Shown here: one piece after another, positions 25,801 through 38,530 of the stretch
Layout: every line of letters begins with the position of its first letter
Numbering within the stretch: the stretch's first letter is position 1
DNA from: Gammaproteobacteria bacterium
GTDB lineage: Bacteria; Pseudomonadota; Gammaproteobacteria; Poriferisulfidales; GCA-002705445
Length of the DNA stretch: 48,192 nt
Assembly: GCA_018674175.1 (NCBI GenBank)
Contig: JABHAT010000015.1
Location: 1-48,192, forward strand
Direction of reading: 5' to 3'
Notes under the pieces: generated by a model
What the model was told of the DNA's origin: nothing
Seen by the model: the letters and a program-made list of their open reading frames with translations, nothing else
Database searches by the model: none
Program-made: the position numbers and the translations under genes

Positions 25801-26193
25801 GATGTTACTAAAAATGGATTTTACTATAATACTTTAAGCGGTGATTTTAGAATAGAAGGAGGTAATATTTTTACTACTAATTTATTAATTAAAGGGCCGG
25901 CGGCTGAAATGCTAGCAGTTGGAACAACTGATATAATCAATGAGACCTATGATATGCAGGTTGTTGCAAGCCCAGAATTTGGAGAAGCTTTGCCAGCCAT
26001 AGCATTATTAGGTGGCCCAATTACAGCTGCCGCTACATTTGCTGCTGAGAAACTAGCCAAAGCCTTTGGTAAAGATATAAATGATTTAATTAAGATAAAA
26101 TACAAGGTTTCTGGATCTTGGGATAAGCCAATTTTAAAAGTTATAGAGAAAAATGGAAGTGCGCTAGAAAATGTGGAGGATTTATTTAAATGA
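22804..26193 (+). CDS. yhdP: YhdP-family AsmA-like lipid-transport protein
   Basis: YhdP is a large AsmA-family inner-membrane-anchored protein proposed to bridge the periplasm and move phospholipids to the outer membrane. The 1129-residue protein has one N-terminal membrane helix (about 4-26), then a long beta-rich, Asn- and Lys-rich region. Its conserved C-terminus (about 970-1110) contains NTTMTNGRLKKVG, GDFRIEGGNIFTTNLLIKGPAAEM and LPAIALLGGPITAAATFAAEKL, the family signature. It is followed by a nitrilase homologue as in other gammaproteobacteria, but rng, which usually precedes yhdP, is absent here. Confidence 0.9.
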   Translation: MKFIKYIVIILIAYLVISLTAARILVANAENNINFFENYISNSNITGIAVEKITSDWKGLYPSIEIFLSRKNKDSSKIYFDNVKINLNIYKSVVLLRPVIKEIYLKNIYYETSVKEILVIFNRKKLNNNIVIENIKIKKSNFIIKYNKSSFDLNNVNILIKNNNLIIDANIDDNKKFACSIKNIKVKGSKLINFDYKIKINGKFNYNFENIFYKHKLIINNSDLFITTSGNFSNGYLVKNKFSILTDKKSNIILNNNVINNINSRLILDGNVNQNVKFEINELNFLSKNNNYYSFNDTSGSISSDNGNVSIFSKKLDINLENFHNDYDLPSTNNIYFSGLVKNLKMKFNLLNFYNEFYVSGDFIKSNISSDTGYIRNFSGYIEASNKSTFVKFYSKNVEIQYKSMLRDRKLYESIYGEVEFSNYSNLLLNIYDLSIVNNEIDINTSGIIDFSKDSIKVLSSINFIDMTKVTDYIPLSLMSEKSSSWFKKSFLSGYSRKAFIMIDGNLSNYPFYDNNNGLSYAVFPIKKLTVDYKKNWVPFENIDGFAYFNNRKAQFNSDEFNVLKTKAINTMLEIDDVKNIELILTGILKGPFNDLLKYSNTASLTSVANRKVINIKGNSETDFRIKIGINGTKNDYRSTIRLNNISFNMDENNSIAKINGKILFKNNLFFTDKNEYITASYNNKDIKFSLSTLKDNSFIIKGVQEIDISKNTPSNNYSDKILGSSLWNYKLIIPGFNSKSKKIKLSAVSNLYGTSIILPKPFYKNKDIKKNISINAFLENNKLYDINIIYNGIYAELSSLDKISGYINFSGKKLKLPNNRFNIIGKLDVINIDDWKALNKNGTPINYFDYINKIDLNIGQLISNNIILDNFSAKGYRSNKSFLFNKIEVNSDKVRIRSNGKIEFGNISSFKVNLSSENLEILLNYWKFTHSLRDSSIDSIFDISWQGGLFDFSLDKIYGEFNTTMTNGRLKKVGNRATRIFGLFNIDLLVKRLSLDFDDVTKNGFYYNTLSGDFRIEGGNIFTTNLLIKGPAAEMLAVGTTDIINETYDMQVVASPEFGEALPAIALLGGPITAAATFAAEKLAKAFGKDINDLIKIKYKVSGSWDKPILKVIEKNGSALENVEDLFK

Positions 26194-27005
26194 AAGATTT
26201 TAAATTATCATGCATACAAGTAGCATCAGGACCTAATATTGCAGCTAACTTTTTAGAAATTAGCAAGCATATTGTGGCAGCAAAAAAACTTGGAGCAGAC
26301 TTAATTGTATTACCTGAAAATTTTTCTATGATGGCAAAAGAAGATTCAATGTATCTAGATATAAAAGAAGAATTAGGGCAAGGGAGAATACAAGACTTCA
26401 TAAGTAATGAAGCTAGAAAACATGACTTATGGATAGTTGCTGGAACTATTCCTATAAAATCACAAAAAAAAGATAAAGTTTATTCAACTTGTATAGTTTT
26501 TAATAATTTGGGTGAGCAGGTTTCATCTTATAATAAAGTTCATTTATTTGATGTTAATATTATTGAGACTAATGAGAAATATAGTGAATCAGATATTTAT
26601 CTAAATGGTAATTCTATAACCGTAATAGATACTCCCTTCTGCAAGATTGGTTTAGCTATATGTTATGATCTTAGATTTCCTGAATTATTTAGAAAGTTGT
26701 CACAAGAAAATGTTGATGTTGTGTGTATGCCAGCCGCATTTACTTCTGTAACAGGAAAAGCTCACTGGGAACACCTAATAAAGGCAAGAGCTATAGAAAA
26801 TTTAGTTTATTTTGCAGCTAGCGCTCAGGGAGGCTATCACGTTAGCGGCAGAGAAACTTATGGGCACTCAATGATTGTCAATCCATGGGGAGAAACGCTT
26901 GATATTATAAAAAATAATTCTGGGGTTATAATTTCATCTATAGATTTAAAATCTTTGAAAAAACTTAGAAAAAATTTTCCATGTTTGAGTCATAAAAGGT
27001 TTTAA
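26190..27005 (+). CDS. Nitrilase-family amidase (Nit2/deaminated glutathione amidase-like)
   Basis: Members of this C-N hydrolase branch hydrolyse omega-amides or deaminated glutathione as metabolite repair. The 271-residue protein shows the Glu-Lys-Cys triad: E43 in LPENF, K116 in YNKVHLFDV and C158 in ICYDLRFPELFR. The HWEHLIKARAIENLVYFAA segment and the GHSMIVNPWG motif near the end are typical. Its start overlaps the yhdP stop by four bases, and its end overlaps the opposing purN by four. The exact substrate cannot be read from the sequence. Confidence 0.88.
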   Translation: MKDFKLSCIQVASGPNIAANFLEISKHIVAAKKLGADLIVLPENFSMMAKEDSMYLDIKEELGQGRIQDFISNEARKHDLWIVAGTIPIKSQKKDKVYSTCIVFNNLGEQVSSYNKVHLFDVNIIETNEKYSESDIYLNGNSITVIDTPFCKIGLAICYDLRFPELFRKLSQENVDVVCMPAAFTSVTGKAHWEHLIKARAIENLVYFAASAQGGYHVSGRETYGHSMIVNPWGETLDIIKNNSGVIISSIDLKSLKKLRKNFPCLSHKRF

Positions 27006-27637
27006 CTAAAAAATATGGGATCATCTAGAATATTATTTTTGTAATATACTTTATTGTTCTCTAATTTTATATCTTTATTTTCAATCATCTTTAGTGTTTT
27101 ATAATATAAAATATGTTCAACTGCCAATAATCTTTTAGCAACAGATGTAGAATCATCAGTTCTATTTACAGGTATTTTATACTGAGCAATTAAAGGCCCG
27201 CAGTCAATATCATTAGTGACATAATGAGTAGTACATCCATGATATAAATCTTTATTTGCAATAACCTTATCATGCGTATAGAGACCTTTATATTTAGGAA
27301 GAAGTGAAGGGTGAATATTAATTATATTACCATTATATGATTTAATTATATTTTCTGGAACTTTGTTCATGTAGCCACAAAGTAGTAATAGACTATTTTT
27401 TTTTGGATTAAGTATTTTTATAAGATCAGAATTATACTTATCATTACTAACAAACGATTTTTTATCAATTATTTTTACATTAAAATTTAATTTACTAATA
27501 ACTTTAATTCCTTCAGCTTCATTATTGCTGCAAATAATATTATCAACTTCAAATTTTAACTTATTATCTAGTATGAATTTTAATATGGAGTATGCGTTTG
27601 ATCCTCTTCCAGAAAAAAGTATGCTTATTTTTATCAT
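27002..27637 (-). CDS. purN: Phosphoribosylglycinamide formyltransferase
   Basis: PurN formylates GAR with 10-formyl-tetrahydrofolate, the third step of purine synthesis. The 211-residue protein begins ISILFSGRGSNAYSIL (phosphate-binding loop). It has the catalytic Asn-His pair in INIHPSLLPKYKGLYTHDKV and the catalytic Asp in THYVTNDIDCGPLIAQ. It follows purM on the minus strand after two bases. The use of a folate formyl donor shows a tetrahydrofolate pool alongside the H4MPT genes. Confidence 0.96.
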   Translation of the reverse strand: MIKISILFSGRGSNAYSILKFILDNKLKFEVDNIICSNNEAEGIKVISKLNFNVKIIDKKSFVSNDKYNSDLIKILNPKKNSLLLLCGYMNKVPENIIKSYNGNIINIHPSLLPKYKGLYTHDKVIANKDLYHGCTTHYVTNDIDCGPLIAQYKIPVNRTDDSTSVAKRLLAVEHILYYKTLKMIENKDIKLENNKVYYKNNILDDPIFFS

Positions 27638-27639
27638 TT

Positions 27640-28695
27640 TTATATATTAATATATTTAACTAATGGCTTACTATTCGTATCAATAATATCGCCAATTATA
27701 AAAGCGTCCATTTTAATTTTTTTAAGTTCTTTTATAATATTCATTGTTTCTTTTTTACTTACTATTAAAGTAATACCAATTCCACAATTCAATACCTTTA
27801 ACATTTCTCTATTATCAATATTTCCTTTTTCTTGAATATATTTAAATATTTTTGGCATCTTTATTTTTTTAAAATCTATAAGAGCAGCCTTATTTTTGGG
27901 TAAAACCCTAGGAATATTTTCTGTTAATCCACCACCAGTTATATTTGCTATAGCTTTAATTTTTTCAAAGCTAGGAATATTTAATATTTCAGTATATATT
28001 TTTGTTGGTTTAATTAATTGTTTTCCTAAAAAGGAGGATCCAATTTTTTCTTTAAGTTTAATTTTTTTTTGATCCAGCATATGATTTATTAATGAATATC
28101 CATTTGAATGCAATCCGCTAGATTTTATTCCTATTACGCAATCATTTTTATTGATATTTACTTTTGGTAATAGTTTACTTTTTTCTGCTATTCCTACACA
28201 AAATCCTGCTATATCAAAATCATTTTTTTTATATAGTTTTGGCATTTCTGCAGTTTCACCGCCAATTAAAGACATTTTACTTAATTTACAACCAGTAGCT
28301 ATTCCTTTAATAACTTGAAAACTACTATCTGTATTTAATTTTCCTGTAGCATAATAGTCTAAGAAGAAAAGAGGTTTTGCACCTTGTGATATTATGTCAT
28401 TAACACACATAGCTACTAAATCTATTCCAATTTCATCAAGTTTATTCATTTTTATAGCAATTTTTAATTTTGTACCAACACCATCAGTTCCTGACACTAA
28501 AACTGGATTCTTATGTTTAAATTTTGAAATATCATACATAGCTCCGAAACCGCCAATATTACCCATAACGTTTTTATCACATGTTTTTTTAGCAATTGGC
28601 TTAATTTTATCAATTAACTTATCTGCATTTTCTATAGAAACACCTGATTTTTTATATGTAACCTTATGTTTTTTATCAATTTTTTTATTTGCCAT
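27640..28695 (-). CDS. purM: Phosphoribosylformylglycinamidine cyclo-ligase
   Basis: PurM closes the imidazole ring to form AIR in purine synthesis, using ATP. The ATG at 28695 was chosen over a TTG one codon earlier; this gives 351 residues. Motifs include YKKSGVSIENADKLIDKIK near the N-terminus, GGFGAMYDI, VSGTDGVGTKLKIA, GVGTK-linked DLVAMCVNDI, GETAEMP and NITGGGLTENIPRVLP. It heads the purM-purN pair, divergent from the CDP-alcohol phosphotransferase. Confidence 0.96.
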   Translation of the reverse strand: MANKKIDKKHKVTYKKSGVSIENADKLIDKIKPIAKKTCDKNVMGNIGGFGAMYDISKFKHKNPVLVSGTDGVGTKLKIAIKMNKLDEIGIDLVAMCVNDIISQGAKPLFFLDYYATGKLNTDSSFQVIKGIATGCKLSKMSLIGGETAEMPKLYKKNDFDIAGFCVGIAEKSKLLPKVNINKNDCVIGIKSSGLHSNGYSLINHMLDQKKIKLKEKIGSSFLGKQLIKPTKIYTEILNIPSFEKIKAIANITGGGLTENIPRVLPKNKAALIDFKKIKMPKIFKYIQEKGNIDNREMLKVLNCGIGITLIVSKKETMNIIKELKKIKMDAFIIGDIIDTNSKPLVKYINI

Positions 28696-28710
28696 CAATT
28701 GTCTCGGTAT

Positions 28711-28738
28711 TTGTTAATGTTATTTATTTATGTATTAA
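28711..28738 (+). promoter_or_regulatory. Candidate promoter giving a leaderless transcript
   Basis: TTGTTA (28711-28716) and TATTAA (28733-28738) are spaced by 16 bases in the 50-nt divergent gap between purM and the CDP-alcohol phosphotransferase gene. The expected start site would fall at about 28745, next to the ATG at 28746. No Shine-Dalgarno sequence is visible before that ATG, which fits a leaderless message. Consensus match only. Confidence 0.35.
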
Positions 28739-28745
28739 TATAAAC

Positions 28746-29303
28746 ATGAATTATATACCAAATATTATAAGCGGTTTAAGAGTATTATTGATACCAGTTT
28801 TTGTAATATTGCTATTAAATAGTAATTACTTTAATGCACTAATACTATTTATTATTATGGGTTTATCAGATGCACTCGATGGTATTTTAGCAAGGTATTT
28901 AAAATGTGAAACATTATTTGGTGCTTATTTAGATGCAGTTGCAGATAAAATGATGATAAATATATCTTTCTATATTCTGTGTATTATGGATATTCTGCCT
29001 TTGTATATCCTTATTCTAGTGTTAGCCAGAGATTTAATTATATTAACAGCAATCGTAATAAATTATAGAAATAAGGCTAATATAATTTTGAATCCAATTT
29101 TTATAAGTAAATTAAATACATTCATACAAATTATTTTAGTGATTTATTGCCTATTATTTTTAAATAAAATGGCGAATTTAACTTATGTGCAAGATATTAT
29201 TAACGTAATAATGATAACAACAATTTTTAGTATAGTAGAATATGTGTATAATTATAAAAAAAATTATACCTTTAAGAGTGTTAGATATACAACAGATATA
29301 TGA
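28746..29303 (+). CDS. CDP-alcohol phosphatidyltransferase family membrane protein
   Basis: The family swaps CMP of a CDP-alcohol for another alcohol in the inner membrane; PgsA-type enzymes make phosphatidylglycerophosphate. The start at 28746 was chosen because the conserved N-terminus NYIPNIISGLRVLLIP begins there; an in-frame ATG 19 codons upstream would give an implausible N-terminus. The 185-residue protein has about five membrane helices and the catalytic motif SDALDGILARYLKCETLFG through YLDAVADK. This copy next to hda and purM is a known gammaproteobacterial arrangement and may be a PgsA paralogue, so no symbol is given. Its stop overlaps the hda ATG. Confidence 0.85.
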   Translation: MNYIPNIISGLRVLLIPVFVILLLNSNYFNALILFIIMGLSDALDGILARYLKCETLFGAYLDAVADKMMINISFYILCIMDILPLYILILVLARDLIILTAIVINYRNKANIILNPIFISKLNTFIQIILVIYCLLFLNKMANLTYVQDIINVIMITTIFSIVEYVYNYKKNYTFKSVRYTTDI

Positions 29304-29989
29304 ATCAACTAATTTTACCTTATCAAAAAAATGTAAAAAAAAAATTTGATAGTTTTTTTTGTGATAATGAAAAAAATGATCAAATAATAGAGATTATTAA
29401 AAATATTTTTGATAATAAAAATAATCAAATTTATATATGGGCAGATAAATCTTTTGGTAAATCTCATCTCCTTTATGCTGCATGTAACTATTTTGGTGAA
29501 AAAAATAAAAAATGTGTTTATTTGCCTTTAACTGATAATAAAAAATTTAAACCTGATATTTTAGATGGTTTTGAAAATTATGATCTAGTATGTATAGATG
29601 ATATAGATCTAATATTCCAAAAAAAAGATTGGGAGTTTAGTTTCTTTGTGTTAATTAATAAAATACTAGATAAGTCCAAGAAAATAATATTTACATCTTC
29701 ATCAAGTCTGGCTTTAAATAATGTTGATCTTAAAGATTTTCACTCAAGATTATCTTCAAGTTTAATATTTATGATTAATAGTCCAAATGATATTACTAAA
29801 AAAAATATTTTAAAAAGAGTTATTCTTGAAAAAGAATATAATATTAATTTAGATATTTGCGAATATTTATTAAAAAGAAATTATAGGGATATTGATTCCT
29901 TGCTAAATACTATTGATAAAATTGGAAGATATTCCTTGTCAACTAATAAAAAAGTTAGTAAAAAAAACTTAAGTCTTATCATTGATTAA
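29300..29989 (+). CDS. hda: DnaA regulatory inactivator Hda
   Basis: Hda binds the beta sliding clamp and triggers ATP hydrolysis by DnaA, preventing over-initiation. The 229-residue protein has the clamp-binding motif QLILP at residues 3-7. An AAA+ core homologous to DnaA follows, with a P-loop ADKSFGKSHLLYAAC near 48-62 and the Walker B VCIDDIDLI. The P-loop departs from GxxxxGKT in the same way as in other Hda proteins. Its last 21 bases overlap the opposing DUF2069 gene, the longest overlap in the window. Confidence 0.93.
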   Translation: MNQLILPYQKNVKKKFDSFFCDNEKNDQIIEIIKNIFDNKNNQIYIWADKSFGKSHLLYAACNYFGEKNKKCVYLPLTDNKKFKPDILDGFENYDLVCIDDIDLIFQKKDWEFSFFVLINKILDKSKKIIFTSSSSLALNNVDLKDFHSRLSSSLIFMINSPNDITKKNILKRVILEKEYNINLDICEYLLKRNYRDIDSLLNTIDKIGRYSLSTNKKVSKKNLSLIID

Positions 29990-30331
29990 TTTATTATTTT
30001 TTTCTCGTACATAAAAAATTGAGCTTGCAAAAATTGTTAAGCTTAATATTGAAATTGTGATACCAAGAATAAAAGTATTCTCATTTGTAGTATTGCCAAC
30101 CCCAACCACAAAATATAAAAGCATTACATATGATGTCATTATATAAGTGCTAAAATTATTTTTCCTTAATTTGAACATTAATATTAGTAGTGGGGCATTA
30201 TAAATTAATGTCGGTAATATTCTTGGTAGATTGGGTGAAGGGCTAATCAATGCATTCCATGTTGCTATCAATAATATTAAAAACACTAAAGACATATACG
30301 TTATGTATTCATATAAGGTGATTTTTTTCAT
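29969..30331 (-). CDS. DUF2069 family inner-membrane protein
   Basis: A 120-residue protein with four predicted membrane helices and a short basic tail (YVREKNNKLINDK). The pattern of helices, the NLPRILPTLIYNAPLLILMFKL segment and the YFVVGVGN turn resemble DUF2069, a small family usually encoded next to wrbA in gammaproteobacteria. It starts inside the wrbA stop (four-base overlap), which implies translational coupling. Function is unknown. Confidence 0.75.
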   Translation of the reverse strand: MKKITLYEYITYMSLVFLILLIATWNALISPSPNLPRILPTLIYNAPLLILMFKLRKNNFSTYIMTSYVMLLYFVVGVGNTTNENTFILGITISILSLTIFASSIFYVREKNNKLINDKT

Positions 30332-30906
30332 AATTTTTTAGCTAATTTTGCAATTCTTTCGCCAAAAGATATGCATAGATTAATTTCGTTTTTCGATAGT
30401 TCTTCCTTTTTATCGCCCGAAAAATGAGTTGGTCCATAGGGGCTTCCACCAGTCCTGGTTTCATTTAAATCATTCTCACTATAGGGAATTCCAGATAAAA
30501 TCATTCCATGATGCAATAAAGGTATCATCATCGTTAGCAAGGTTGTTTCTTGCCCACCATGAATGCTAGATGTTGAGGTAAATACTCCCGCAGGTTTTCC
30601 TGATAATGTGTTGTTAAACCATTCTGTAGTAGTAGTATCTAAGAACACTTTCATAGGTGCAGCCATATTACCAAAGTGTGTTGGCGAACCCATTATAAGC
30701 CCATCACAATTTGATAAATCCTCATTTGTTGCAAATAAAACGTTCTCTTCATTAGCAATTTCATTATCAAATGTATTTTTTATATTTGGTAGTGTTCTTA
30801 TTATAGCCTCAATATTTTCTACAGAATTTACGCCCCTAGAAATTTTTTCAGCCATTTTTTTAGTAGAACCATTATTACTATAATAAATAATTAATATTTT
30901 TTTCAA
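30328..30906 (-). CDS. wrbA: NAD(P)H:quinone oxidoreductase, WrbA family flavodoxin
   Basis: WrbA proteins are FMN-dependent two-electron quinone reductases that limit redox cycling. The 192-residue protein has the flavodoxin phosphate loop YYSNNGSTKKMAEKI near residues 7-21, the GSPTHFGNMAAPMK segment, the STSSIHGGQETTLLTMMIPLLHHGM signature near 112-136, and SPYGPTHFSG. It lies two bases after the lipoprotein gene in a four-gene minus-strand run with norD. Confidence 0.93.
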   Translation of the reverse strand: MKKILIIYYSNNGSTKKMAEKISRGVNSVENIEAIIRTLPNIKNTFDNEIANEENVLFATNEDLSNCDGLIMGSPTHFGNMAAPMKVFLDTTTTEWFNNTLSGKPAGVFTSTSSIHGGQETTLLTMMIPLLHHGMILSGIPYSENDLNETRTGGSPYGPTHFSGDKKEELSKNEINLCISFGERIAKLAKKL

Positions 30907-30908
30907 TT

Positions 30909-31583
30909 TTATATTCCTATAGGTAAAAATAAAACTTTTTGAACAACCCCTTGGGCAGCTTTTTGAATCATTCTACCTTGTTGAGAGGATATTATTCTTG
31001 CCATATTTTCTTGATTATTTATTAGTTTACCAAAAAGTCTTTCAAAACTTAAATTTATTTTATTTTTTTTAATGTTATTTGTCGTAATTAACAATACACC
31101 ATCTTCTTTTGTATTGCTTAATCTCCAAACTAAAGTTTCAATATTAATTGCGGTATTCATAATTTTTTGCGCATCTATATTTTGGTCAGTGAAGTAAAAT
31201 TTACTCTTATAATTATACGAAGCATTAATCATTCCATATAAACCTTTACAGATATAATATATCCTATCACCCGTAAATTTTTTATCAAAACCTTTTAGTA
31301 TAAAATCAATATTTTCTTGGCCAGTTTTATCAACTTCGTTAATATCTACTTCTTTAAATATATCTAATATAACTTGGGATACGCTATTAAAATGCTCATT
31401 TTTTTTTATGTATATAGGATTTAATTTATATAATTTAATAATTAAATCTTCAATTTGACTTTTTGCGTTAACAGCATGAATTTCTGTAATTATGTCTATA
31501 TCTGTTTTGGCTATATTTTTTAAAATATTATTTTGACATGAAGTCAGCAATATTATTGATATTAGTATTAATATTTTATTCAT
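30909..31583 (-). CDS. Unrecognised lipoprotein downstream of norD-like gene
   Basis: I do not recognise this 224-residue protein. It has a short basic N-terminus, a hydrophobic stretch and a lipobox ending LLTSC at residues 12-16, so it is probably a lipoprotein. The next residue is Gln, which is compatible with outer-membrane sorting. The mature part is mostly helical and Lys/Asn/Ile-rich. It has a YYICKGLYGMINASYNY segment mid-protein and a C-terminal RIISSQQGRMIQKAAQGVVQK helix. It begins on the base after the norD-like stop codon, so the two are almost certainly co-expressed. Confidence 0.7.
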   Translation of the reverse strand: MNKILILISIILLTSCQNNILKNIAKTDIDIITEIHAVNAKSQIEDLIIKLYKLNPIYIKKNEHFNSVSQVILDIFKEVDINEVDKTGQENIDFILKGFDKKFTGDRIYYICKGLYGMINASYNYKSKFYFTDQNIDAQKIMNTAINIETLVWRLSNTKEDGVLLITTNNIKKNKINLSFERLFGKLINNQENMARIISSQQGRMIQKAAQGVVQKVLFLPIGI

Positions 31584-33791
31584 TTAAGCTGTAATTTTCC
31601 TATATATATCAGAAACTTTAATTGGTAATTTATCGACTTGATTTATAACAGCAAAGTTTGTTTTCCCATACATATATGGAAGGTAATCCATTGCTTTCTC
31701 ATCAATCGTTATGCAATACGTATGAATACCAAGAAATCTTGCTTCTATTAAAGCTTTTTTAGTATCCTCTATTCCATATGTCCCCCTATAACCATCTACA
31801 TCATCTGGTTTACCATCAGATAAGGTTATTAGTAGTTTTGTTTTAGCTTCAACTTTACTTAGCAACATAGTTAAATGTCTTATGCTTGCTCCCATTCGCG
31901 TGTAGTCCATTGCTTCAATGTTACATATTCTGTTCTTTACAGATGAATCATATTTTTCTTCAAAATCTTTTATCTTGTATACTTCACATAGATTTCTAGT
32001 TTTACCAGAAAAACCATATATCGCGTATGTGTCGCCGAGAACTTCAAGAGATTCACACAATAAAACTAAAGATTCTTTCTCCATTTTATTAATCCATCCG
32101 GATGTCGAACCACTCATGTCTACCATAAACATTACCGCAACATTTCTTTCTGTTTTATTTAGTTTTATAAATAATTTTTCATCTACTTCTTTGCCTTGTT
32201 TTAAATCTATATATGCGTCAATAAAAGCATCTAGGTCTATATCATCTCCATAATTCTGTTTTCTTAATCTTTTTTCATCTTCTCTTAGCGCTTCAAATGT
32301 TCTATTTAAATTTTTTAATAAGCCCCTGTGCTTACTAAGCGTTTCATTAATAAAATTATTGTTAACTCCTTCAATTGTTTTAACATTAAGCTTACACCAA
32401 TCTTTTCTATATTTTTGTCTCGCATGATCCCACTCGTTATAAGTAAAATTATAATCAGAGTTACCATAATCATGCTCTGAATCCTCATTTTCATTGTCAG
32501 TATCATAACCACCTTCACCTGCAGGCTCTAAATAATCTTCTGGTATTTCACCAAAATCTTGAATTATAGATTCCATAATTTGTTTCATATTTTCTGGCGG
32601 CGTTATATTACTATCACCAAATTCTAGAGCAACATCATACTCGTTATCGTTATTCTCTTTTGAAACCGAGAAAGTTTTATCATTACTATTTTCATTTTCA
32701 CTAGATTCTTCTGGTGCTTTTTCAACTTCTTTCCACTGCTCATGAAGTTCGTCCAAAGCTTTTTCGAAGTTAATTTTATCTTGATTTATTCTTTCGTCTG
32801 CGACTAGTGACGCGCTATCAAGTTTCAGGTTCCCTGCATATTGAGAAGAAGGAACTTTATCAATATCATTAATTATTGAACTAATGAGGTTTAAAGATTC
32901 TTTATAAGTAGAGCTTTGATCCGATAAAGTATTTACCGCATTATTAAAATTCTTTGAAATTGACTTAAGTTGTTTTTTAGGATTTAGTTTGTCTAGTATT
33001 CTTCCAACACCTGGCAGCTCTTTTTTTATTTTTTCGTCTAATCTAACTGTTTCTAGAAGGTGGTAGGCCTTGATTGCTTTTTCTTTATTCTCAAATTCAT
33101 TAAAATCATCTTTATCAACTCTCCAAGTGCCAAAATAAGTTTGGGCCCACAAGTGTATTGCACTAGCTTTTATTAAATGAAAATTCTCTTCTTTTGTTCT
33201 TTCTGACGAGACTCTCTCCGGGAGATATATTGTTTCGGTATCAGTATATATTTCTTCTGCAACCTCTACTTTCAAAGGTCTTCCGTTTAGCCCTGTTAAT
33301 AGTGATTCAATGGTCTTTGAAAACTCTGAAAAGTCTATACTAGTAGCTGTTCCAGCTAAGCTATTTGAGTAAAAAACAATATCATTCATCAGTTGTACTG
33401 ATTTATCAATACCACCATTTCTATAATTTTTTGTTATTTCTGTGACCCAGATTTCCCACTGGGACTCATCTAAATGTTTTAACGATTCAACACCGTGATG
33501 GCAAAAATTATATGCAAGCTCCATATCAATGTCGCATATATTTCCTACAGTATCTATAAATCTCTCTTGATCCTGCATATTGAACATACATAAGGCTTTC
33601 GCAGGACTCAAAACACTTTTTTTAGTAGATAAAAAGTCTTCTAAGTGAATCTCCAACCTAAGTTGTATTTCTCGCTCGCCCATCCCACCATATATTGCAG
33701 AGGCTTTAGTTTTTGGCCCTCGATTAGTTCTAGCCTTAATACCTTTACCCTTTCGGTGTTTTTCAATTGCTTTATCCCAAAAACTTTTCAT
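31584..33791 (-). CDS. NorD/CbbO-type von Willebrand factor A domain protein
   Basis: NorD and CbbO are VWA proteins that work with MoxR-type AAA+ ATPases (NorQ/CbbQ) to activate or insert metal into nitric oxide reductase, or to reactivate RuBisCO. The 735-residue protein has the family's central segment TETIYLPERVSSERTKEENFHLIKA and HLWAQTYFGTWR near residues 195-225, and a long acidic Ser/Asn/Glu-rich stretch near 365-450. A C-terminal VWA domain has the MIDAS motif DMSGS near 557, LITLSDGKPDDVDGYRG near 650 and ends KVSDIYRKI. No MoxR-type ATPase, nor norCB or cbbLS, is encoded in the window, so NorD or CbbO cannot be chosen. Confidence 0.85.
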   Translation of the reverse strand: MKSFWDKAIEKHRKGKGIKARTNRGPKTKASAIYGGMGEREIQLRLEIHLEDFLSTKKSVLSPAKALCMFNMQDQERFIDTVGNICDIDMELAYNFCHHGVESLKHLDESQWEIWVTEITKNYRNGGIDKSVQLMNDIVFYSNSLAGTATSIDFSEFSKTIESLLTGLNGRPLKVEVAEEIYTDTETIYLPERVSSERTKEENFHLIKASAIHLWAQTYFGTWRVDKDDFNEFENKEKAIKAYHLLETVRLDEKIKKELPGVGRILDKLNPKKQLKSISKNFNNAVNTLSDQSSTYKESLNLISSIINDIDKVPSSQYAGNLKLDSASLVADERINQDKINFEKALDELHEQWKEVEKAPEESSENENSNDKTFSVSKENNDNEYDVALEFGDSNITPPENMKQIMESIIQDFGEIPEDYLEPAGEGGYDTDNENEDSEHDYGNSDYNFTYNEWDHARQKYRKDWCKLNVKTIEGVNNNFINETLSKHRGLLKNLNRTFEALREDEKRLRKQNYGDDIDLDAFIDAYIDLKQGKEVDEKLFIKLNKTERNVAVMFMVDMSGSTSGWINKMEKESLVLLCESLEVLGDTYAIYGFSGKTRNLCEVYKIKDFEEKYDSSVKNRICNIEAMDYTRMGASIRHLTMLLSKVEAKTKLLITLSDGKPDDVDGYRGTYGIEDTKKALIEARFLGIHTYCITIDEKAMDYLPYMYGKTNFAVINQVDKLPIKVSDIYRKITA

Positions 33792-33809
33792 ATAAAATTT
33801 ATTTAACCT

Positions 33810-33837
33810 ATAATATAACTTGGGTAATTAATCATAA
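33810..33837 (-). promoter_or_regulatory. Candidate promoter for the norD-like operon
   Basis: Read on the minus strand, TTATGA (33837-33832) and TATTAT (33815-33810) are spaced by 16 bases, 18 bases upstream of the norD-like ATG, in the 64-nt divergent gap with pncC. No strong Shine-Dalgarno sequence follows. Weak consensus match. Confidence 0.3.
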
Positions 33838-33855
33838 TTCGTTTTTTTATATAAT

Positions 33856-34353
33856 ATGCTAATTAATTTTGAGAAGATATTAAATAATTTAGGTAAGATT
33901 TTAGTAGATAAAAACTTAAAGCTATCTCTATGCGAATCCTGTACAGGTGGTTTAATATCTAAAATTTGCACTGATTATAGTGGCAGTTCTCAGTGGTTTT
34001 TAGGCGGTATTATTGCATATAGTAATAACATGAAAGAAATAATTGGGGTCAACCATAAGACCTTGAAAAAATACGGCGCAGTAAGTGAAAATACTGCTCA
34101 AGAAATGTCACTAGCAACTCTTGCTTTTACAAACTCGGATATTTGTTTAAGTGTAACAGGTATAGCTGGTCCAATTGGAGGAAGTTATGAAAAACCAGTT
34201 GGGACAGTTTATTTTTCTTATTCAGATAAATATAGTTCTAATATTACTAAAAAAATTATTTTTAAAGGCTCAAGAAAAGAAATAAGATATTTGGCTGCAA
34301 AAGAGGGTATTCAAATAATCCTTGATTGTGTAACTGATATTAAGACACAATAA
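33856..34353 (+). CDS. pncC: Nicotinamide-nucleotide amidohydrolase (CinA C-terminal type)
   Basis: PncC deamidates nicotinamide mononucleotide to nicotinate mononucleotide, recycling the NMN left by NAD-dependent DNA ligase. The 165-residue protein is the stand-alone CinA C-terminal domain. It has LSLCESCTGGLISKICTDYSGSSQWFLGG near residues 23-50, GIIAYSNNMK, and the SVTGIAGPIGGSYEKPVGTVYF block. It precedes recA, as in E. coli and Pseudomonas. A TATAAT directly abuts the ATG and no ribosome-binding sequence is visible. Confidence 0.93.
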   Translation: MLINFEKILNNLGKILVDKNLKLSLCESCTGGLISKICTDYSGSSQWFLGGIIAYSNNMKEIIGVNHKTLKKYGAVSENTAQEMSLATLAFTNSDICLSVTGIAGPIGGSYEKPVGTVYFSYSDKYSSNITKKIIFKGSRKEIRYLAAKEGIQIILDCVTDIKTQ

Positions 34354-34400
34354 GCAAAAAATATGTAATAATTTAAATTAATTAAACATAGGAAATAATT

Positions 34401-35465
34401 ATGTCAGATCAAAGAGTCGAATCCCTTAAAGCTGCAATAGGACAAATAGAAAGACAGTTCGGTAAAGGAGCTGTTATGAGATTGGGAGATGATGGCCCAA
34501 GAGAGAAAATAGAATCAATTTCAACCGGCTCTCTTAAGCTAGACCAAGCTCTTGGGATAGGTGGTTTGCCAAAAGGCAGGGTTGTAGAAATATATGGTCC
34601 TGAGTCATCTGGAAAAACTACATTAACTCTTCAGGTTATAGCTGAATGTCAAAAACTCGGTGGAACAGCAGCTTTCATAGATGCAGAGCATGCATTGGAT
34701 CCTGATTATGCAGAAAAAATTGGTGTAAATGTAGATAACTTGCTCTTATCTCAACCCGACACTGGAGAACAAGCTCTAGAGATTACTGATATGTTAATAA
34801 GTTCTGGAGCAATAGATGTAATAGTTATTGATTCAGTTGCAGCACTTACCCCAAGGGCTGAAATAGAGGGTGAGATGGGTTCTAGTCATATGGGTCTTCA
34901 AGCAAGACTAATGTCACAAGCATTAAGAAAGCTTACAGGTTCAATTAAAAAATCAAATACTTTAGTTATATTTATAAATCAGATTAGGTTAAAGATTGGA
35001 GTAATGTTTGGAAATCCTGAGACAACAACTGGCGGGAATGCATTAAAATTTTATTCCTCAGTTAGGCTCGATATAAGAAGAATTGGAGCTATAAAAAAAG
35101 GTGATGAGATATTAGGAAACGAGACGCGAGTCAAAGTTGTAAAAAACAAAGTTGCTCCACCTTTTAAGATAGCAGAGTTTGAAATTAGATATGGCGAAGG
35201 TATTTGCAAAGTCGCAGAAATTATAGATCTAGGAGTTGAGCACAAAATTGTTGAAAAAGCAGGCTCTTGGTATAGTTATGACGGCAATAAAATTGGTCAA
35301 GGAAAAGATAATGCTATGAGTTACTTAAAGGATAATCCTGAGTCACTTAAAGCTATAGAAGAAAAACTTTATGAGATAATACTTCCAGACAAAAAAAGCA
35401 CCGATAATGATAAGAAAGAAGTAAAAAAAGATAAGAAAGATAAGAAAGAAGAGGAGAATGTCTGA
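34401..35465 (+). CDS. recA: Recombinase RecA
   Basis: RecA forms the ATP-dependent strand-exchange filament and triggers LexA cleavage where SOS exists. The 354-residue protein has Walker [10 protein letters not shown] at 66-74, [20 protein letters not shown], the loop regions [17 protein letters not shown] and [22 protein letters not shown]. The C-terminal tail is lysine-rich with mixed charges ([11 protein letters not shown]), unlike the mostly acidic tail of E. coli RecA. No CTG-N10-CAG SOS box was seen in the 47 bases upstream. It overlaps recX by eight bases. Confidence 0.98.
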
Positions 35466-35913
35466 ATACGACAAATGTCTAGCATCAGCACAAAAGTCGC
35501 TTGCTATGCGAGAGCATTCTAAAATTCAATTAATAAATAAGTTAAAAAATAAAGGTTTTGAGACAGGTACTATTAATAACGTTTTAGAAGATTTGCGTAA
35601 TTCTGGATTTCAGTCTGACGAAAGGTATACAGAAGAATATATTAGGTACAGGCAAAATAGTGGGTATGGTTTAGAAAAAATAATATATGAATTAAAATCT
35701 AATGGTATCAGCTCAGGTTTGATAGATAAAAATCTATATAAATTTATAGACGATTACGATGTTCTTCTTGATTTTGCAAAATTTAAAATTCGTAATAAAA
35801 ATTTAGAAGATCAAAAAGTTTTATTTAGATATATTAATAATTTTAGAGCAAGAGGTTTTGAAGGTGACACAATTTTAAAGGTGATAGAAAATATTAAAAG
35901 ATATGAAAAATAG
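35458..35913 (+). CDS. recX: Regulatory protein RecX
   Basis: RecX modulates RecA filament growth. The 151-residue protein is made of three-helix repeats. It begins with [24 protein letters not shown] (about residues 10-33), followed by [26 protein letters not shown] and [16 protein letters not shown], all typical of RecX. It overlaps recA upstream by eight bases and alaS downstream by 11, so the three genes are tightly coupled. Confidence 0.93.
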
Positions 35914-38530
35914 TAGTTCAGAAATTAGAAGTAAATTTATAAACTATTTTACTGCAAAAGGTCATACTTATGTTGACTCAAGCCCAATACTTCCTCCAAA
36001 TGATGACAAAACCTTATTATTTACCAATGCCGGCATGGTGCAATTTAAAGATGTATTTTTAGGACTAAAAGATTCTAAACTTAAATCCGCTGTCACAAGT
36101 CAAAAATGTATAAGGGCTGGAGGTAAGCACAATGATTTAGATAATGTTGGTTTTACAAATAGACACCATACATTTTTCGAAATGCTTGGAAATTTTAGTT
36201 TTGGTGATTATTTTAAAGAAGAGGCAATTAAATACGCATGGGATTTTTTAACTTTAGAGTTAAATATTCCAAAGGATAAATTGTGGATTACTGTTCATGA
36301 TACAGATTTAGAAGCAAAAAATATTTGGATTAATGAAATCGGTATAAATGAAAATAGACTTTCTATTATTGGAACTAGCGATAACTTTTGGAGCATGGGT
36401 GATGTCGGACCGTGCGGCCCATGCACTGAAATTTTTTATGATTACGGAGATAAATATAAGGGTATGCCGCCCGGAAAAGGAGACGAAGGTGAAAGGTACG
36501 TAGAGATATGGAATTTAGTTTTCATGCAATTTAACAGATTATCTAAAGATGAAATTATTGAGTTACCTAAACCTTCTGTAGATACCGGGATGGGACTAGA
36601 GAGAATATGCGCTGTAATGCAAAATGAGCATAGTAATTACAGTACAGATTTATTTGCTCCAATGATTGATTTTATCAAAAATAGTGTTGATAAAAAATAT
36701 ATTAGCGAGATCAGTTCAATGAAAGTTATAGCTGACCACATTAGATCAATTTCTTTTTTGATTACGGAAGATGTGAGACCCTCAAACGAAGGACATGGTT
36801 ACGTTCTTAGAAGAATAATAAGAAGAGCTATTAGGCATTCGCAAAAAATAAATCTAGATACTAAAAAATTATTAGAAATTATACCTATCTTTATTGACAC
36901 ATTAGTTGACCAATATAAAGAGGTTAATAAATATGATTATATTAAAAAAATATTGTCTTTAGAGATAGATAAATTTTCTGAAACTTTAGAGGTTGGATTA
37001 GAAATATTAGATAAAAATATAAAAAAAATAATTTCTAACGGGAGTAAAAAAGAAATTTCAGGTGATCTATTATTTTTACTTTATGATACATATGGTTTTC
37101 CTATTGATTTAACGTCAACTATAGCTAATGAAAAAAAATTTAAAGTTGATATAGATTCTTTTGATAATTTGATGGAGAAACAAAAAATCAATAGTAAAAA
37201 ATCTAGTAAATTTGAAACTCAAAATTTTATAGATATAAAAACAAAACATGTGACTGATTTTACAGGATATTCAGACTATAAAAATAATATTGAAGTACTG
37301 GATATATATATTGAAGGTGAAAATTCAAATACAATTAACTTTGGAGAAAGCGCATGTATAATAATTAATCCCTGCCCGTTTTATGCTGAATCAGGTGGTC
37401 AAATTGGAGATTCAGGGGTAATTGCATCTAAGAACGGTGAATTTGAAGTTATTGATACCAAAAAACTTGGTGCAGCTAATTTATTGTATGGAAAACAAAC
37501 TAAGGGGTTCTTAAAAATTAATGATAAGGCCAATGCTGAAATTAATAAAGAAAAAAGAGATTGTATTATGCTTAATCATTCTGCAACTCATTTATTGCAT
37601 GCTGCATTAATAAAAAATATTGGTAATAGCGTTCAACAAAAAGGTTCTTTGGTTTCAGACACCAAACTGAGATTTGATTTTAGTTGCGAAAAACCCATTA
37701 AAAGAAAAGTTTTAAATCTAATCGAGGAAGAGGTTAATAATAATATTAAAAAAAATATTACTGCCGACACTAAACTCATGGGTAAAGAAGAGGCCATATC
37801 TAAAGGTGCTATGGCTCTTTTTGGTGAAAAATATGATGATGAGGTGAGAGTTTTAAGTTTTTCAGACGTTTCAATTGAATTATGTGGTGGTACTCACGTA
37901 AAAAGTACTGGTGATATTGGTGTTTTTAAAATACTATCTGAATCAAGTGTTTCATCAGGTGTAAGGAGAATAGAGGCTATAACAGGTATGTCTGCAAATA
38001 ATTATTTAACAAAAAGGGATAACCTGGTAACTGATGTATGTCAGATATTAAATGTGCATGATGAAGAACTGCAAAATAAAGTACATGCAATATTAGACGA
38101 TAATAAAAAATTAAAAAAAGAAAACTTAAATTTACTTAAAAACTTTAATAAATTAAAAATCTTAGAAGTTATTAGTAATAAAAATTTAAAAGATAAATTT
38201 AACGTTCAAGTTATTGCGCAAGAATATTTTGACGGCAAAGTTTTAAAAAATGTTTTGGAGGATATTAAGTCATCTGAAGAAAATTTAATTTTAATAATAA
38301 TTCAAAAAAATAAATCAAAGGTTGAGATTTATACGCTTGTAACTAAGGACTGCTTTAATTTTATAACTGCTAAAGAAATTATAAATATTATAAATAATAA
38401 TATAGGATCAACGGGTGGTGGCCGTGATGATCTAGCCCAAGCGGGACTTGAATATAAAGATAATATAGAAAATCTTACCGATATTATCAAAAATAATATA
38501 TCTGAAGTAATTCTAAATAAGGGAAAATAG
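35903..38530 (+). CDS. alaS: Alanine-tRNA ligase
   Basis: AlaS charges tRNA-Ala and edits mischarged Ser and Gly. The 875-residue protein matches the usual 870-880. It begins SSEIRSKFINYFTAKGHT and has class II motifs including FTNAGMVQFKDVFLG and TGMGLERICAVMQ (near 230). The editing domain has metal ligands HSATH near 559 and CGGTH near 661. The C-terminal C-Ala domain ends with NNIGSTGGGRDDLAQAG. The gene begins inside recX. Confidence 0.97.
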   Translation: MKNSSSEIRSKFINYFTAKGHTYVDSSPILPPNDDKTLLFTNAGMVQFKDVFLGLKDSKLKSAVTSQKCIRAGGKHNDLDNVGFTNRHHTFFEMLGNFSFGDYFKEEAIKYAWDFLTLELNIPKDKLWITVHDTDLEAKNIWINEIGINENRLSIIGTSDNFWSMGDVGPCGPCTEIFYDYGDKYKGMPPGKGDEGERYVEIWNLVFMQFNRLSKDEIIELPKPSVDTGMGLERICAVMQNEHSNYSTDLFAPMIDFIKNSVDKKYISEISSMKVIADHIRSISFLITEDVRPSNEGHGYVLRRIIRRAIRHSQKINLDTKKLLEIIPIFIDTLVDQYKEVNKYDYIKKILSLEIDKFSETLEVGLEILDKNIKKIISNGSKKEISGDLLFLLYDTYGFPIDLTSTIANEKKFKVDIDSFDNLMEKQKINSKKSSKFETQNFIDIKTKHVTDFTGYSDYKNNIEVLDIYIEGENSNTINFGESACIIINPCPFYAESGGQIGDSGVIASKNGEFEVIDTKKLGAANLLYGKQTKGFLKINDKANAEINKEKRDCIMLNHSATHLLHAALIKNIGNSVQQKGSLVSDTKLRFDFSCEKPIKRKVLNLIEEEVNNNIKKNITADTKLMGKEEAISKGAMALFGEKYDDEVRVLSFSDVSIELCGGTHVKSTGDIGVFKILSESSVSSGVRRIEAITGMSANNYLTKRDNLVTDVCQILNVHDEELQNKVHAILDDNKKLKKENLNLLKNFNKLKILEVISNKNLKDKFNVQVIAQEYFDGKVLKNVLEDIKSSEENLILIIIQKNKSKVEIYTLVTKDCFNFITAKEIINIINNNIGSTGGGRDDLAQAGLEYKDNIENLTDIIKNNISEVILNKGK

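Follow-up and report, generated by a model that had tools for sequence, protein, structure and literature searches.

A NorD-type VWA protein whose probable ATPase partner is encoded behind APS reductase genes: a possible third client class of CbbQ/NorQ-type AAA+ machines

The stretch of DNA analyzed here, 48,192 nucleotides (nt) of contig JABHAT010000015.1 in the gammaproteobacterial assembly GCA_018674175.1 and hereafter the window, encodes a 735-residue VWA protein of the NorD/CbbO type. We propose that this protein serves as the VWA adaptor in a MoxR-type pair, that its ATPase is encoded on another contig behind aprMBA, the genes for dissimilatory adenosine 5′-phosphosulfate (APS) reductase, and that AprBA is the client of the pair, a proposal to which we give even chances. 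The broader hypothesis is that such pairs are a third client class of CbbQ/NorQ-type AAA+/VWA machines, an activase or maturase dedicated to APS reductase in sulfur-oxidizing proteobacteria, which completes or rescues AprBA; here too our confidence is evenly divided. APS reductase is central to sulfite oxidation in many sulfur oxidizers, and in the reverse direction it serves sulfate reduction. Among the literature titles and abstracts searched (supplements were outside the scope), none links a NorQ/NorD pair to apr. In the Thiodictyon syntrophicum genome paper, the locus tags given for sat, aprBA, and qmo-hdr leave a short gap that passes without comment (PMC5944118).

The ATPase and adaptor of the window genome

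The window genome (G000) comprises 1.08 Mb in 30 contigs and is 88% complete. A genome-wide search returned one NorQ/CbbQ-type ATPase, located outside the window at G000:C27:4890-5702, as well as five weaker AAA_5 matches. The C27 protein carries AAA_5 and CbbQ_C domains, and the Walker A residues G, K, and T and the Walker B residues D and E are kept in 71/71 apr-type NorQ proteins; judged by its sequence, this is the ATPase of a CbbQ/NorQ-type pair with both Walker motifs intact. The original prediction described the VWA protein as an orphan with no MoxR-type partner in the window. No such gene is among the open reading frames (ORFs) listed for positions 26000 to 38000, and the sole NorQ/CbbQ-type ATPase is found elsewhere in the genome. 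Since norQ is present in the same genome, the window norD is not an orphan.

On C27, the genes upstream of norQ on the same strand encode a membrane protein that occupies the place of aprM, AprB, AprA, a 119-residue protein matching no family, and a phosphoesterase, with AprB and AprA matching TIGR02060 and TIGR02061 above cut-off. In the window genome, norQ therefore adjoins aprMBA on its downstream side, and norD lies away from apr. AprA, the 119-residue protein, and NorQ occur together in 10/10 fetched loci, drawn from nine genomes of the window family. Across the genus, norQ is present in 11/11 genomes and norD in 7/11, and one genome lacking norD is 93% complete. We take the names AprM, QmoA/B, and HdrB/C, and the division of AprA into lineages I and II, to apply as used here. 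AprM has no family match, and the Qmo and Hdr proteins carry the expected domains.

Two further neighbors were seen at such loci. A protein of 116 to 135 residues, with no Pfam or NCBIfam match, stands directly behind lineage-I aprA (L007:3903-4262, L162:8270-8677, L152:2681, L288:12256), and an MMPL-family transporter adjoins norQ at L124:8496-10982 and at L052:11042-13789, where it is fused to a cyclic-nucleotide-binding domain.

ATP sulfurylase is also present in the window genome. The original prediction called for a search for norCB and RuBisCO genes, and this gave no match to the RuBisCO large subunit (PF00016) in the 88%-complete genome and no match to NorB in that genome or in the 11 other genomes of the family. 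Because apr and ATP sulfurylase are present and the RuBisCO large subunit was not found, the incomplete genome suggests that the organism oxidizes sulfite through APS without RuBisCO.

No family of Pfam or NCBIfam matches the window VWA protein above cut-off, and the Pfam VWA models fall below it. Other comparisons point to NorD: NorD proteins were the sole phmmer matches among solved chains, over residues 448-734, and the best Foldseek matches to the model of the window protein (mean predicted local distance difference test score, pLDDT, 80.7) were likewise NorD VWA domains. None of the fold matches listed spans more than 296 columns, out of 735 residues, and the N-terminal part, searched as part of the whole protein, had no sequence match among solved chains. 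The metal ion-dependent adhesion site (MIDAS) is formed by D558, S560, S562, T631, and D659, all five of which are kept in 102/102 aligned long-form NorD proteins. The protein can be read from these features as an adaptor with a C-terminal VWA domain and a MIDAS motif, as found in CbbQ/NorQ-type MoxR/VWA pairs.

Quick trees, built without bootstrap from 78 of 127 NorD rows and 72 of 96 NorQ rows and containing some long branches, place both proteins with the apr-linked pairs. In the NorD tree (from which the L158 protein was left out), 54 apr-type rows form one group with the window protein inside it and the norCB- and RuBisCO-linked rows apart (support of 99 in the SH-like approximate likelihood ratio test, SH-aLRT). 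In the NorQ tree, 48 rows including the NorQ of the window genome form one group (SH-aLRT 99), again apart from norCB- and RuBisCO-linked rows. On these sequences, the window NorQ and NorD both belong to the groups of apr/sat/qmo-linked pairs and fall outside the norCB and RuBisCO groups. Within the groups the trees differ, with the window NorD beside L127, L131, L287, and L289 and the window NorQ beside L162 and L178. NorQ and NorD distances are correlated (r = 0.75 for 66 pairs and 0.67 for 36 thinned pairs, with 0/2000 permutations in each case; L302 and L303 were left out here and in the motif counts), a result that shared ancestry alone could produce. The suggestion of an activation or metal-insertion module distinct from those of nitric oxide reductase and RuBisCO finds support in the separate groups, in the lack of matches to NorB and the RuBisCO large subunit in the 88%-complete genome, and in the apr/sat/qmo linkage in relatives.

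Linkage to sulfur oxidation genes in other genomes

Named genomes were scanned with an alignment of these proteins, and the loci considered are the best 80 of 590 confirmed matches, many of which end at contig edges. About a quarter of the 80 titles name sulfur oxidizers (Thiobacillus, Sulfuricella, Sulfurimicrobium, Thiomargarita, Thiocystis, Lamprocystis, Sedimenticola, Thiosymbion, Thiodiazotropha, and Thioalkalivibrio), and many others read merely Gammaproteobacteria or Proteobacteria bacterium. Among these best 80 norD loci, NorQ is encoded in 47, AprA and AprB in 12, AprM in 3, Sat in 7, a Qmo-like protein in 13, an HdrB-like protein in 11, and a CxxCxxCC protein in 13; 26 of them contain one or more of the apr, sat, qmo, and hdr genes. 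For comparison, 24 loci of other NorD/CbbO types contained norB in 11 cases, the RuBisCO large subunit gene in 10, and neither in 3, with apr, sat, or qmo in none (two of the 24, the norCB-linked L302 and L303, were assigned after the NorD tree).

Three arrangements were found. The first, aprB-aprA-CxxCxxCC-norQ-norD, occurs in nine loci, six of which have sat in front, and its AprA is 43-47% identical to that of the window genome. In the second, hdrB-hdrC-qmoB-qmoA is divergent from norQ-norD (ten loci and three partial ones). The third has lineage-I aprMBA in three loci, with AprA 69-71% identical to that of the window genome; L162 is colinear, reading aprM-aprB-aprA-119aa-like-FKBP-like-norQ-norD, where "FKBP-like" denotes matches below cut-off. 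One record with aprMBA and norQD, the metagenome record L203, is titled Bordetella parapertussis, probably a misassigned name.

Rather than on AprBA, the pair may act on another enzyme of the pathway, such as QmoAB-HdrCB, AprM, Sat, or some other Fe-S or metal enzyme of sulfur oxidizers, an alternative that we consider unlikely while still giving it real weight. It is favored by the ten loci in which qmo/hdr is directly divergent from norQD, an order also found in genomes G143, G102, and G140. In the islands of G143 and G102 and in that of G053, where qmo/hdr is ~8 kb off, aprBA lies 22-25 kb from norD, and in G140 qmo/hdr is beside norQD with aprA 532 kb away. The lineage-I clusters (L152, L162, L203, and the window family), however, have aprM and no qmo in the stretches read, which argues that Qmo is not the common client. 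We favor AprBA because it is common to the clusters with sat, to those with aprM, and, when whole islands are considered, to those with qmo/hdr, and because it accompanies the pair in both AprA lineages, whether or not the arrangement includes qmo.

Co-occurrence was surveyed in 369 genomes of the class. Up to two NorD and three AprA candidates were scored per genome, so that second copies may be missed. Cut-offs were set by eye (250 bits for NorD), and strong AprA matches, some of them fragments, were assigned to lineage I at ~58% identity or above and otherwise to lineage II. Long-form NorD was found in 61 genomes, lineage-II AprA in 70, and lineage-I AprA in 52. Lineage-II AprA is present in 45/61 genomes with long NorD as compared with 25/308 without NorD (odds ratio 32, p = 2e-26), counts in which related genomes are not independent. 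By family the figures are 33/41 and 8/142 (odds ratio 69, p = 2e-21), where the 183 families are the family codes seen; family f3 at least is probably outside the 369-genome sample. In 12 of the 45 genomes, norD and lineage-II aprA lie on one contig within 53 kb, and in the five single-contig lineage-II genomes they are 22, 25, 53, 186, and 532 kb apart.

Several observations weigh against AprBA as the client. Lineage-I AprA, the type of the window genome, is not associated with NorD (10/52, p = 0.55), and long NorD was not found in 35/40 genomes with lineage-I AprA alone. In the loci read, the norD genes most closely related to that of the window (L127-L132, L287, and L289) have neither norQ nor apr. 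Distance also counts here: norD and aprA are 186 and 532 kb apart in two of the five single-contig lineage-II genomes, and the separation amounts to 1.05 Mb and 175 kb in two single-contig genomes with lineage I only. Strong AprA was not found in 11/61 NorD genomes (two of the 11 are only 72-73% complete), and nine loci read from these 11 genomes contain no apr, sat, qmo, or hdr gene. Conversely, 25/70 lineage-II genomes are without long NorD, indicating that AprBA is not always in need of NorD. Of the 60 genomes with Apr and no NorD, 57 were searched again with all NorD candidates scored (G052, G105, and G359 were left out), and none yielded another match reaching 250 bits. Two of the genomes carry remnants near apr. 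In G327 (L337:14606-15151) a fragment of an apr-type norD lies ~31 kb from lineage-II aprA and abuts a qmoB fragment, a junction that appears to be a deletion scar or an assembly error, and in G150 (L338:8738-10413) norD and norQ fragments lie ~12-13 kb from lineage-I aprA. These sequences suggest that the pair was lost.

The NorD genomes in which strong AprA was not found bear on both alternatives to an AprBA client. For a client elsewhere in the pathway, they add to the point that the association is with lineage-II AprA, the lineage accompanied by qmo in the clusters seen. They also fit a MoxR/VWA chaperone with a general or different target, which would simply accompany sulfur oxidation genes and whose client may differ by lineage, as do the cytochrome c and Fe-S protein neighbors in three loci of these genomes and the loss of norD-norQ adjacency in the window subgroup. 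We find the chaperone of this kind doubtful, more so than a client elsewhere in the pathway, since the family odds ratio and three independent-looking apr/qmo gene orders exceed what a shared lifestyle need produce.

In the order to which the window organism belongs, an apr-norQ-norD cluster probably came apart, with norQ staying by apr and norD coming to stand beside a lipoprotein gene and wrbA. In small-genome relatives the two genes would have become separated, leaving an apparent orphan.

The lipoprotein gene and the window gene run

The norD gene opens a run of four minus-strand genes, and divergent cinA lies 64 nt away:

31584..33791, minus strand: norD-like VWA adaptor, 735 residues, long form of the apr-linked group (ORF listing, NorD VWA match)
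30909..31583, minus strand: lipoprotein, 224 residues, of an uncurated and mostly helical family (ORF listing, homologue alignment)
30328..30906, minus strand: wrbA, NAD(P)H:quinone oxidoreductase, 192 residues (NF002999 and TIGR01755 above cut-off)
29969..30331, minus strand: DUF2069 membrane protein, 120 residues, last gene of the run (PF09842 above cut-off)

The ORF listing and the Pfam and NCBIfam matches confirm the lengths, the strand, and the succession of wrbA and DUF2069 genes as first described, including the 0-nt junction between the norD and lipoprotein genes. The wrbA gene starts 2 nt after the lipoprotein gene and is overlapped by the DUF2069 gene by 4 nt. A promoter scan gave 19 promoter-like sites as compared with 25.9 expected; three terminator-like sites were found against 0.9 expected, none of them at the end of the norD run.

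By reading of its sequence, the lipoprotein has a start that resembles a lipobox (LTSC); Cys16 is nearly invariant in 24 homologues, and Pfam LPAM_1 falls below cut-off. The original prediction could not assign this protein, and neither can we: there is no Pfam family above cut-off in the 24 members and no Foldseek match at E 0.001 or better for its AlphaFold model (mostly helical, mean pLDDT 73, six sequences). VIA-align reached Z 8.6, within the level common for helical bundles, and its ferritin-like and YtfE-like rows are given no weight here; PDB sequences gave one match at E 0.061.

The original prediction regarded norD, the lipoprotein, and WrbA as an envelope-linked module, an explanation that we find improbable. 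The gene order itself recurs in relatives. The norD-lipoprotein-wrbA-DUF2069 order is found in 8/8 norD loci of the window family (f1), and the norD-bearing genomes of family f2 (5/5) have, ~110 nt downstream of norD, a gene for a lipoprotein homologue (25-27% identity). This recurrence is therefore more than chance. The f3 genome with norD, G014, was searched for a lipoprotein homologue and none was found. Homologues also lie near sat-apr-norQD in four Thiobacillus-type loci (L154, L158, L159, and L184), a suggestive link that is shallow. At the level of the 27/369 class genomes with a homologue, there is slight co-occurrence with long NorD (9/27, p = 0.027) and with lineage-I AprA (10/27, p = 0.0017). 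Against this, the lipoprotein gene is adjacent to norD in 4/27 genomes and away from it in 23/27, and by family there is no association with NorD (5/14, p = 0.31). Five of the best 80 norD loci hold the lipoprotein gene and one has it adjacent, and its other neighbors are unrelated (undecaprenyl-phosphatase-like, methyltransferase-like, and sigma-factor-like genes, and electron transfer flavoprotein by Pfam). As a partner of norD, the lipoprotein is a weak candidate, and it is probably a conserved neighbor in two families instead. The likely partner is the NorQ encoded elsewhere, leaving little to recommend the lipoprotein and WrbA in that role. The original prediction had also named two findings that would count against it. 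The first, a norQ elsewhere with correlated divergence, was observed, bearing in mind that ancestry could give the correlation too; the second, absence of the norD-lipoprotein adjacency in relatives, was not.

Other observations concern norD in further genomes. A DnaJ-domain protein is encoded just upstream of norD in L127, L128, L129, L130, L132, L050:9924-10568, L287:10474, and L289:10856 (PF00226 was confirmed in L050 and L127). The norD genes in such loci are close to that of the window and have no adjacent norQ, and the DnaJ neighbor is possibly a further chaperone link. In L133:4272-7310, L135:3028-6069, and L140:3095-6127, frames of ~1010 residues have a methyltransferase-like domain (Methyltransf_25 in L135) before the NorD part, a possible methyltransferase-NorD fusion, and several other NorD matches lie in frames of ~1000 residues. 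Plasmid records gave partial VWA matches only (256 records, all with less than 80% of the query covered).

Proposed mechanism and comparison with known MoxR/VWA systems

We suggest that the pair works in the manner of NorQD. By this analogy, a NorQ hexamer would grip the VWA finger, the N-terminal part of the adaptor and its MIDAS site would hold the client, and ATP hydrolysis would twist a linker and open the client. The finger grip and linker twist are taken from the accounts of NorQD in PMC13036017 and PMC9976466. The client, to judge from gene linkage, would be AprBA, and the pair would either complete one of its cofactor or metal sites or restore an active site that has become inhibited. 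We favor maturation over reactivation because the CxxCxxCC protein, a putative zinc- or iron-chelating domain, stands between aprA and norQ in nine clusters. If this is correct, an unassigned gene pair inside sulfur oxidation clusters would be explained by a dedicated AAA+ maturation or activation machine, which would be relevant to expressing oxidative APS reductase in a foreign host.

The proposed role is likened to that of NorQD in loading iron into nitric oxide reductase. Both systems combine a MoxR ATPase bearing AAA_5 and CbbQ_C domains with a VWA adaptor bearing a MIDAS motif, and their VWA domains match in sequence and fold. They differ in that norCB was not found in the window genome, NorD and NorQ fall in separate groups, the N-terminal part of the window protein is unmatched by solved NorD sequence, and the linkage is to apr/sat/qmo instead.

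CbbQ-CbbO shares the same ATPase domains and a VWA adaptor, and the solved chains closest to the NorQ of the window genome are 5c3c (a CbbQ/NirQ/NorQ domain protein) and 6l1q (CbbQ). The differences are again the separate groups and, in this case, the RuBisCO large subunit, which was not found in the window genome. CbbQO is described as rescuing an inhibited RuBisCO site (PMC5437159). Sutter et al. 2015 mention a class of CbbQ without a RuBisCO association (PMC4633670), and this class may overlap the apr-linked one.

RavA belongs to a different MoxR subfamily, and the comparison drawn here between RavA-ViaA and the apr-linked pair is one of reported function. FrdA is a flavoprotein of the family to which AprA belongs. 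RavA-ViaA of E. coli is reported to bind FrdA, although it reportedly represses fumarate reductase, and the article also mentions a conflicting report (PMC10585395). This binding provides a precedent for a MoxR/VWA pair acting on a flavoprotein of AprA's family. Should AprBA prove to be the client, it would be the third for MoxR/VWA pairs after RuBisCO and nitric oxide reductase, and would offer a further system in which to study how adaptors choose their targets.

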